40,214 nt of DNA from Pseudomonadota bacterium (GTDB lineage: Bacteria; Myxococcota_A; Polyangia; Polyangiales; JAKSBK01): the NCBI GenBank assembly GCA_022361155.1, contig JAKSBK010000162.1, positions 1 to 40,214 of the forward strand, written 5' to 3'. Within the stretch, counting starts at the first letter, position 1; the number at the start of each line of letters is the position of its first letter. Below are positions 34,168 through 36,541 of the stretch, piece by piece. The translations under genes and the position numbers were made by a program. The notes under the pieces are model-generated. The model was not told the origin of the DNA. It saw only the letters and a list, made by a program, of their open reading frames with translations, and searched no databases.

Positions 34168-35370
34168 CTAGGGCAGCTGCGACAACAGTGTGGAGGCAGG
34201 CACAACGCACGGATCTGTGCGGCCGAAGCAGCTTGCGGCTACATGATTACGGCTCAGCACGGCCTGGAACGCGTGCCTGGCCCTGGTTTGCCGCTGGAAA
34301 TGCGCAAGGTGGTCACTGAGTCTGGCTTCGCTCTGCTTCGCTTCCACCATGAACCAGGGCTCTCCATCGCGCACCACCAAGAAATCGACCTCTCGCTTGT
34401 CCTTGTCGCGCAAATAGCGGAGCTCGTAGTCGCCGAGGCCCGCGTCTTGCCAAGCCTGAACCGACTTGAGCAAGTGGCAGGCAACAAAGGTCTCGTACCG
34501 TTGACCGGGATCGCTTATCGCCGACCAATCCCTGAGGAACCACTTAGGCTCCTTCCGCAGAGACTTTGCCACGTTACGAAACCACGGACGCACTAGGAAG
34601 CCATAGTGCAACGTGCATGCCGCAGCGACCCAGCGGCGAACGGTGTCCACCGATACGTTCACGTTGCGCGCGAGGCTGGAGTAGCTGAGCTGACAGCCTG
34701 AGCGCTCGCGCAGCAGTGCGAAGGCGAGCTCGAGCTGTGCGAGATCCTGGATTGGACTCAGATCACGGACATCCTCCCGCACGAGCTGGGCAAAGCGCAG
34801 GGACCGCCAGCGTCGTGAGAAGCGCGAGTCGTCCTTTGCATACGGCTCGGGGAAACCGCCGTGCTTGTACAGCGCCTTGAAGCGGCGCGGGCCCAGCCGC
34901 TCGGGTGGCCGCACTTCCCTGGCGAGCAGTCCGGGGTGTACGAGCTCGCCCACAGACAGCGGGTGCATCCGATAGAGCAGATACCGACCCATCAAGCTGT
35001 CGCCCCCCCGGCGGTAGACGTCCATGCGCGAGCTGCCCGTGACGACGATCCGAAGCCGGTCCGCGTGCTTGTCGAATAGGCCCTTCAGCAGCGTGCGCCA
35101 ACGTCGGTACTTGTGGATCTCGTCGATCACGAGCAGCGCGGGACGATCGCTCAGCTGTCCGAGCGAGAGCGCCGCGACAATCGCGGACGGCCCCCGCGTG
35201 ATCAGCCGCCGGTCGTCTTCATCATCCCAATTGAGGTACTTGCAACGCGGATCGAGCCGGCGGCAGGTCGTCGTCTTGCCTACCTGCCTCGGACCGGTCA
35301 CGAAGACCATCTGCCGGTGTGCCTGCAGATGTTCGGTCAGCAGTACGTCGTAGAGACGCGGAATCGGCAT
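34168..35370 (-). CDS. AAA ATPase with C-terminal DUF4143
   Basis: A 400-residue protein of the AAA_14/DUF4143 family. Walker A is GPRQVGKTT (about residues 26-34), Walker B is LLVIDEIHK (about 78-86) and a sensor region VVTGSSR follows. The C-terminal half holds a helix-turn-helix-like stretch (LSYSSLARNVNVSVDTVRRW) and a PD-(D/E)xK-like segment (KREVDFLVVRDGEPWFMVEAKQ), typical of DUF4143. Function of the family is not settled; many members are encoded in defence, toxin-like or mobile islands. The start codon is immediately preceded by a nested palindrome, and no Shine-Dalgarno is free. Confidence 0.85.
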   Translation of the reverse strand: MPIPRLYDVLLTEHLQAHRQMVFVTGPRQVGKTTTCRRLDPRCKYLNWDDEDDRRLITRGPSAIVAALSLGQLSDRPALLVIDEIHKYRRWRTLLKGLFDKHADRLRIVVTGSSRMDVYRRGGDSLMGRYLLYRMHPLSVGELVHPGLLAREVRPPERLGPRRFKALYKHGGFPEPYAKDDSRFSRRWRSLRFAQLVREDVRDLSPIQDLAQLELAFALLRERSGCQLSYSSLARNVNVSVDTVRRWVAAACTLHYGFLVRPWFRNVAKSLRKEPKWFLRDWSAISDPGQRYETFVACHLLKSVQAWQDAGLGDYELRYLRDKDKREVDFLVVRDGEPWFMVEAKQSEARLSDHLAHFQRQTRARHAFQAVLSRNHVAASCFGRTDPCVVPASTLLSQLP

Positions 35371-35371
35371 G

Positions 35372-35435
35372 GGACCATCTTACGATGGTTCATAAGATGG
35401 TCCAAACCGTTTTACGAACCATCGTAAGACGGTCC
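35372..35435. repeat. 64-bp nested palindrome at the 5' end of the AAA ATPase gene
   Basis: Two adjacent hairpins are present. The first is 35372-35403, with perfect 11-bp arms (GGACCATCTTA / TAAGATGGTCC). The second is 35406-35433, with 11-bp arms and one mismatch (ACCGTTTTACG / CGTAAGACGGT). In addition, the outer 20 bases at each end form an inverted repeat with one mismatch (35372-35391 and 35416-35435). The first arm starts one base upstream of the ATPase start codon. It may be an operator, a translation-blocking leader or the terminal structure of a mobile element. Confidence 0.9.
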
Positions 35436-35635: not shown

Positions 35636-36541
35636 TCACGTGGGTAGCGCGAGCTGGACGGCGGCCGCATCCGGTTGAGCAAGGTCAACCATGAGCGGCT
35701 CGAACCGGCTGAGCCTGCGGGACATCACGGCGATGGCTTCCGGGTTGTGGTCGACCATCAGGAATGCTCGGCCGTGCATGCCGGCGGCTTCGCCGCTCGT
35801 CCCGCTGCCGGCGAAGAAGTCCAACACGAGGTCGCCAGGCTTGGAATGCACGCGAACGATGCGGTCCAGGATCTTGAGCGGCTTCTGTGTGGGGTAGCCG
35901 GTGCGCTCGCAACCGTTGGTCGGCACGATGGTTTGCCACCACACATCGGTCGGGGTCTTCCCGCGCGCAGCCTTTTCCTTGCCGACCAAGCCTGGAGCCA
36001 TATAGGGAATCCGGTCGACGGCGTCGAAGTTGTAGCTGTACGCCTTCGGCGACCTCGAGTACCAGAGGAGGTTGTCGTGCTTTCTCGACCAGCGAGAGCG
36101 AGAACGGGCGCCGAAGTCATAGGACCAGATGATTTCGTTCTGGAAGTTGTCTCGACCGAACAGGCCGTCCATCAGGACTTTGCAGTAGTGGACCTCGCGG
36201 CAGTCGAGATGCACGAAGATCGAGCCATCGCGCCGCAGGACCCGTCGAGCCTCACGTAAGCGAGGCTCAAGAAAGGATAGGTACTCGTCGTAGTCGTCGC
36301 CGTAGGACATCGACCGGAGCCGAGTCGTTCGGTAGCGGCGACCACCGAAGCCCGTCCGATCGCCATCCGGGTCCAACTCGGTTCGCAGCTGTGTGAGCCG
36401 CCGCCGCTTTCCCGTGTTGAACGGGGGATCGATGTACACGAGCCCCACGCACTCGTCGGGCAGCTCCGCGAGGGCTCGCATGCTCTCGCCAGCCGCGATC
36501 GCGGAGCGTCCACGACTCAGCACGGACTGAAGGCAACCCAT
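35636..36541 (-). CDS. beta-class site-specific DNA methyltransferase (N6-adenine or N4-cytosine)
   Basis: A 301-residue AdoMet-dependent DNA methylase. The catalytic motif IV is YIDPPFNTG (about residues 36-44) and the AdoMet motif I is LDFFAGSGTSGEAA (about 239-252). The order IV before I defines the beta class, with the target-recognition region between. REVHYCK, EIIWSYDFG, RWSRKHDNLLWYS and TGYPTQKP are typical of the family. The DPPF form of motif IV fits either amino-methylating activity; the target sequence is not predictable. No restriction endonuclease gene adjoins, so it looks like an orphan. It diverges from the sulfatase across about 240 bases. Confidence 0.9.
   Translation of the reverse strand: MGCLQSVLSRGRSAIAAGESMRALAELPDECVGLVYIDPPFNTGKRRRLTQLRTELDPDGDRTGFGGRRYRTTRLRSMSYGDDYDEYLSFLEPRLREARRVLRRDGSIFVHLDCREVHYCKVLMDGLFGRDNFQNEIIWSYDFGARSRSRWSRKHDNLLWYSRSPKAYSYNFDAVDRIPYMAPGLVGKEKAARGKTPTDVWWQTIVPTNGCERTGYPTQKPLKILDRIVRVHSKPGDLVLDFFAGSGTSGEAAGMHGRAFLMVDHNPEAIAVMSRRLSRFEPLMVDLAQPDAAAVQLALPT

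Follow-up and report, generated by a model that had tools for sequence, protein, structure and literature searches.

A tandem palindrome in the predicted promoter of an AAA_14/DUF4143 ATPase gene as a probable operator for the gene's own product

The window, by which we mean the whole analysed stretch of 40,214 nucleotides, carries on its minus strand a gene of an AAA_14/DUF4143 ATPase, P0001, whose ATG start codon occupies positions 35370-35368 and is preceded by a large palindrome (Table 1). P0001 matches the Pfam families AAA_14 (3e-26) and DUF4143 (1e-25), and the PADLOC profile places it in PDC-S01 (E 4.8e-54). A gene of an N6/N4 DNA methyltransferase (35636-36541, minus strand) lies directly upstream in the same orientation; this methyltransferase is absent near the homologs tested. 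The genome from which the window comes has nine DUF4143 matches (L001-L009), all divergent and some partial; in L001, a perfect 16-bp dyad, GGGTATAATTGTCAAT/ATTGACAATTATACCC, is located immediately before the likely GTG start.

Table 1. Coordinates in the window of the ATPase gene, its protein motifs and the elements of the upstream palindrome.
Feature	Position	Strand	Basis
AAA_14/DUF4143 ATPase gene, P0001, 400 aa, PADLOC PDC-S01	34168..35370	-	Pfam and PADLOC profiles
PD-(D/E)XK-like nuclease motif, residues 327-345 (E327, D329, E343-x-K345)	34336..34392	-	alignment
Helix-turn-helix, residues 230-253; predicted recognition helix 241-253; putative specificity residues V241, D242, R246	34612..34683	-	co-variation, AlphaFold2 model
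Walker A, residues 26-34, GPRQVGKTT	35269..35295	-	homolog alignment
Candidate operator array, four half-sites, containing the predicted promoter	35372..35435	-	arm pairing, fold, half-site pattern, homolog register
Half-site 4, TCGTAAGATGGTCC, overlaps the predicted -10	35372..35385	-	half-site pattern
Predicted -10, TAAGAT, 6 nt before ATG, 4/6 to consensus	35377..35382	-	
Half-site 3, GGACCATCTTATGA, inverted, overlaps the predicted -35	35390..35403	-	half-site pattern
Predicted -35, TGGACC, 4/6 to consensus; homologs have T(T/G)GACT at this register	35399..35404	-	
Half-site 2, TCGTAAAACGGTTT	35404..35417	-	half-site pattern
Half-site 1, GGACCGTCTTACGA, inverted	35422..35435	-	half-site pattern

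The Walker A and B and PD-(D/E)XK-like residues are all intact in P0001. In the alignment of homologs (n = 180), G26, Q29, G31, D83, D329 and E343 are invariant, and K345 is retained in 178 sequences; the nuclease motif suggests that P0001 has a PD-(D/E)XK-like fold. No solved structure matched P0001 by sequence, nor does any come close to its DUF4143 part. The helix-turn-helix-like segment mentioned in the preliminary description of this locus is present, both as a sub-threshold Pfam match at residues 227-249 and in the AlphaFold2 model (mean pLDDT 90), where helices 230-237 and 241-253 are separated by a turn and the domain is predicted to be winged.

The outer arms of the palindrome (35372-35401 and 35406-35435) are 30 nt each, complementary at 26 of 30 positions and separated by a loop of 4 nt, and the inner hairpin (35372-35385 and 35390-35403) is paired at 13 of 14 positions. 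The binomial expectation for arms with at least 26 of 30 matches is about 4e-6 per window, and the next-best inverted repeat anywhere in the 40 kb does not exceed 20/30. The folding energy of the element is -60.1 kcal/mol, compared to -34.4 +/- 3.3 for shuffled sequences (z = -7.7). A search of the 73-bp element against the whole 5.4-Mb genome yielded only the self-match, with no near-identical second copy, so a dispersed repeat is ruled out there. Thus, the nested palindrome reported earlier upstream of the ATPase start is real. It had been described as two hairpins sharing a motif; the repeats and the pairing are indeed there, but the element is better described as four half-sites forming two tandem dyads 32 bp apart. 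The half-sites alternate in orientation, with the consensus [A/G]TCGTAAAATGGTC (CRTAARAYGGTyc, four times, in the array of the window), and the dyad centres are situated 16 bp apart, at approximately -49.5, -33.5 and -17.5 relative to the gene; with such steps, the two dyads recur after 32 bp, that is, approximately three helical turns. Read in the direction of the gene, the 64 bp are GGACCGTCTTACGATGGTTCGTAAAACGGTTTGGACCATCTTATGAACCATCGTAAGATGGTCC, followed by C and then by ATG, hence the array stops 1 nt short of the start codon. The window has four copies of the motif CRTAARAYGGT and no more, all of them inside the palindrome.

Proteins 55-62% identical to P0001 are found in Planctomycetota, Verrucomicrobiota, Acidobacteria, Gammaproteobacteria, Spirochaetes and other groups. 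The check proposed with the first observation was a search for the motif before other DUF4143 genes. Of about 100 homologs, which belong to many phyla, nearly all are preceded by the array at an equal distance from the start codon, the start codon or the array register being uncertain for a few of them. In aligned upstream regions (n = 85), half-site positions mostly carry 0.6-1.8 bits, compared to almost none for the 5-6 nt between them. The 27-mer core, with at most three mismatches, is present in 38 of the 50 homolog-bearing genomes, in nearly all cases as a single copy located at the homolog, and the reversed pattern gave no matches in the same 50 genomes. Hence neither these genomes nor the home genome show the motif as a dispersed repeat at unrelated genes, the pattern that had been named as contradicting the initial reading.

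Several loci deviate from the usual arrangement. In L134 (G144:C2), the homolog is truncated to 187 aa while the array is intact, and the same genome has a full second copy. In L086 (gene start near 2200), which is 87% identical in DNA to L032, the upstream region is replaced at the first codons and the array is lost. L268 (G623:C180:30500-34200) contains a perfect inverted duplication of 1840 nt resulting in two identical head-to-head copies, possibly an assembly artefact. An orphan array with three half-sites and no DUF4143 gene was observed in L197 (L197:1050-1150; G137:C92:14094), approximately 100 nt upstream of a gene of an AbiEii nucleotidyltransferase (L197:1225-1977, Pfam 7.6e-14); this genome also has a homolog, L083, with a half-site closely matching the orphan array. 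The orphan may be what is left of a cassette after decay, or it may be regulated in trans. Viral carriage was considered as well, and a pattern scan of IMG/VR found no homolog.

In fixed register, the array has at its centre T(T/G)GACT, 16 bp, (G/T)ATAAT. In 81 of 102 homologs, each of the two hexamers agrees with the sigma-70 consensus at four or more of six positions, whereas none of the 102 does so at any of five shifted registers. Thus, the two tandem inverted repeats sit within the predicted promoter of the ATPase gene itself. The hexamers of the window are weak (4/6 and 4/6), falling below the threshold of a simple promoter scan, which therefore missed them. The distance between the end of the -10 hexamer and the start codon is 5-11 nt in the 102 homologs (6-9 nt in 94 of them), and a Shine-Dalgarno-like match of at least 4/6 is seen in only 15. 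With such a short distance, transcription would presumably begin at the A of the ATG or within a few nucleotides of it, giving a leaderless mRNA from which the hairpin is missing. In a Verrucomicrobia-centred clade (L241, L242, L244, L245, L246, L247 and L250), the whole array precedes a separate promoter, predicted to be leaderless as well (in L245, TTGACT...TATAATgtccaatATG). As the array there is upstream of the -35 hexamer, the palindrome of this clade acts as DNA and cannot be leader RNA; such geometry would suit activation, not repression.

The half-site drifts by lineage (CGTAAAA, TGCGGAA, TCGATTTT, GTGGCAAA, CTGA...), while the four-fold architecture remains constant. We compared each protein column with half-site similarity, having removed the overall protein distance, in 136 homologs (9180 pairs); homologs and register were selected by the inner half-site positions and dyad scores only, and the protein was not used. 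The top three of 352-365 columns were residues 246, 242 and 241 (partial r 0.61, 0.53 and 0.45 overall; 0.74, 0.61 and 0.51 within the subfamily), and restricting the test to closer pairs or to the subfamily left this ranking unchanged. In the AlphaFold2 model, all three are situated at the N-terminal end of recognition helix 241-253. The correspondence can be read at half-site position 12: all 85 sequences with C at this position have Arg246, while C is never seen there in the 41 sequences that lack Arg246. Asn242 pairs with GC or GA at positions 11-10 in 15 of 16 cases; Pro242 tends to occur with TT, Lys242 with CC, and Glu241 with GG at positions 9-8.

When relatives were left out, residues 241, 242 and 246 predicted the half-site of remote homologs at 0.69-0.74, compared to a maximum of 0.63-0.69 for 300 random column triples; the nearest whole protein also predicted worse. 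On a tree built without the helix-turn-helix columns, the states change 13-14 times, and the independent supported pairs are in the right direction (5:0 agreeing, 4 ties; p 0.06), their number being too small for significance. Mutual information (MI-APC) is also high for some pairs of bases at inner positions with residues outside the helix-turn-helix, e.g. K269 with t=1. The co-variation is firm only in the subfamily of P0001 and its nearer relatives. For distant DUF4143 subfamilies, where we used a register-free k-mer distance, it is weak, residues 242, 231 and 241 ranking 8, 9 and 13 of 341. Dyads (at least 10/12) are nevertheless seen near the start codon in 18 of 46 distant-subfamily genes, as against 18 of 276 coding windows (p 6e-9). 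They have sequences of their own, many of them near-perfect, such as ATTGT...ACAAT before ITHNTAKAW-type proteins and CCTTGAAAAT...ATTTTCAAGG in another group.

Homologs that are 80-94% identical in DNA and come from different genomes mostly share a single block with unrelated flanks; it begins at the array's left edge, at about -46 to -71, and ends at 0 to +9 relative to the stop codon. Given these limits, what is transferred is the array with its open reading frame, a unit of 1.25 kb. Longer flanks are shared by L036/L041 (to -186), by L065/L073 and L064/L069 (78-138 nt downstream) and by L166/L167 (142 nt upstream), and some pairs are fully syntenic. Conservation among homologs drops sharply at the stop codon, and no right-end motif was seen there, so a two-ended transposon is unsupported. 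Such a pattern demonstrates that a self-contained gene was transferred laterally; it does not demonstrate a mechanism of transposition.

We consider it probable (roughly 0.84) that the palindrome works as double-stranded DNA, being an operator which holds the leaderless promoter of the gene and is bound by the product of the same gene. The winged helix-turn-helix within the DUF4143 region would read the outer bases of each half-site via residues 241, 242 and 246, in physical binding that may depend on ATP. P0001 occupying the four half-sites would cover both the -35 and -10 hexamers and most likely repress transcription once there is sufficient protein, this negative autoregulation being suggested by geometry only; the upstream dyad, if bound alone, may activate, as with the C proteins of restriction-modification systems. 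The array and the gene would travel jointly as a self-contained cassette, operator and recognition helix drifting together, in which case paralogs in one genome should not cross-regulate. Autoregulation by the encoded helix-turn-helix protein, one of the two functions initially suggested, is thus strongly supported by the co-variation of operator and recognition helix, from which the binding is predicted. Recognition of the own array may be a part of the main function of these proteins and not only a control of expression, DUF4143/PDC-S01 then being a set of orthogonal self-addressed systems; we regard this as possible but rather doubtful. If true, the main function would be to sense the state or copy of the own locus, to mark self, or to mobilise the cassette of array and gene.

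The other function initially suggested, the end of a mobile element, has indirect support in the array-plus-gene unit common to different genomes. Here, the array would be a left end recognised by the ATPase-nuclease, which would move both array and gene, with autoregulation as a by-product. The shared block with unrelated flanks, the wide phylogenetic scatter of homologs and the intact Walker and PD-(D/E)XK-like motifs agree with that, but there is no conserved right end past the stop codon and no near-identical second copy in the home genome, several pairs share more flank, and the pattern is also explained if a self-contained gene was transferred horizontally; hence we consider such an element unlikely. 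Lower still we rate the array as transcribed RNA, whose hairpin would hide the start codon in translational autoregulation or a riboswitch-like manner. The very stable fold, its position adjoining the ATG and the lack of a strong Shine-Dalgarno sequence agree with the early proposal of a tightly folded leader without a free ribosome-binding site. This proposal is not supported, since the predicted promoter is inside the palindrome: hexamers at a fixed register in most homologs would leave the array outside the transcript, and several Verrucomicrobia-centred homologs have it upstream of the -35. Four half-sites at 16-bp steps, with specificity tracking the recognition helix, fit DNA binding, and a search of Rfam with the element gave nothing above the gathering score; an RNA hairpin or riboswitch was rejected on the promoter position and this lack of an Rfam match. 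Least probable of all is a separate host regulator. Operators are usually read by dedicated regulators, but this ATPase gene brings its own array into many phyla, the motif is otherwise practically absent from homolog-bearing genomes, and the residues of the gene's own helix-turn-helix track half-site changes above all other columns.

Among known systems, archaeal Orc1/Cdc6, in which a winged helix binds origin DNA, and clamp-loader AAA+ proteins have the AAA core in common with P0001; the whole-chain fold match is poor (TM ~0.3), consistent with similarity of the AAA core only. In AbiE, a type IV toxin-antitoxin system, a helix-turn-helix component acts on inverted repeats to repress the promoter from which it is expressed, similarly to what is predicted here, although AbiE comprises two genes and P0001 is one polypeptide. 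The sole link to AbiE that we have seen is the stray array in L197.

PDC-S01 (AAA_14/DUF4143) has been described as a candidate phage-defence singleton, the fourth most common predicted prokaryotic defence, and experimental validation of most PDC candidates is pending (PMC12988326). P0001 belongs to this family by profile. In a search that covered non-subscription literature, in which a single paper names DUF4143, we found no description of DNA binding, operator, regulation or biochemistry of PDC-S01/DUF4143; a prior description may exist elsewhere. One of the commonest unstudied candidate defence families thus gains a putative DNA ligand, candidate specificity residues and a half-site code. 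Its spread as a single gene would be explained, promoter, operator and regulator all fitting on 1.25 kb of DNA. The homologs also offer a natural collection of candidates for orthogonal pairs of helix-turn-helix and operator.

The closest parallel is provided by the C-protein loops of type II restriction-modification systems (C.Csp231I, C.PvuII, C.Esp1396I), where tandem inverted repeats, the C-boxes, are located in the C protein's own promoter, the helix-turn-helix product binds this promoter, and the transcript is leaderless (PMC4824078). Membership of the C-protein family by homology can be rejected: the searches made revealed no sequence homology, P0001 is a 400-aa ATPase, and the neighbouring methyltransferase is missing near the homologs. 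C proteins are small, separate helix-turn-helix proteins, whereas the P0001 regulator would be a large AAA ATPase that also carries a nuclease-like domain; its half-site is 12-14 bp, in four copies at 16-bp steps, unlike C-boxes; and its array controls no methyltransferase or restriction operon. What the two have in common is tandem inverted repeats embedded in the own promoter, travel with a defence-type cassette, and operator motifs that vary between protein groups; binding by the own helix-turn-helix product and a leaderless transcript, as in the C-protein systems, are predicted for P0001.
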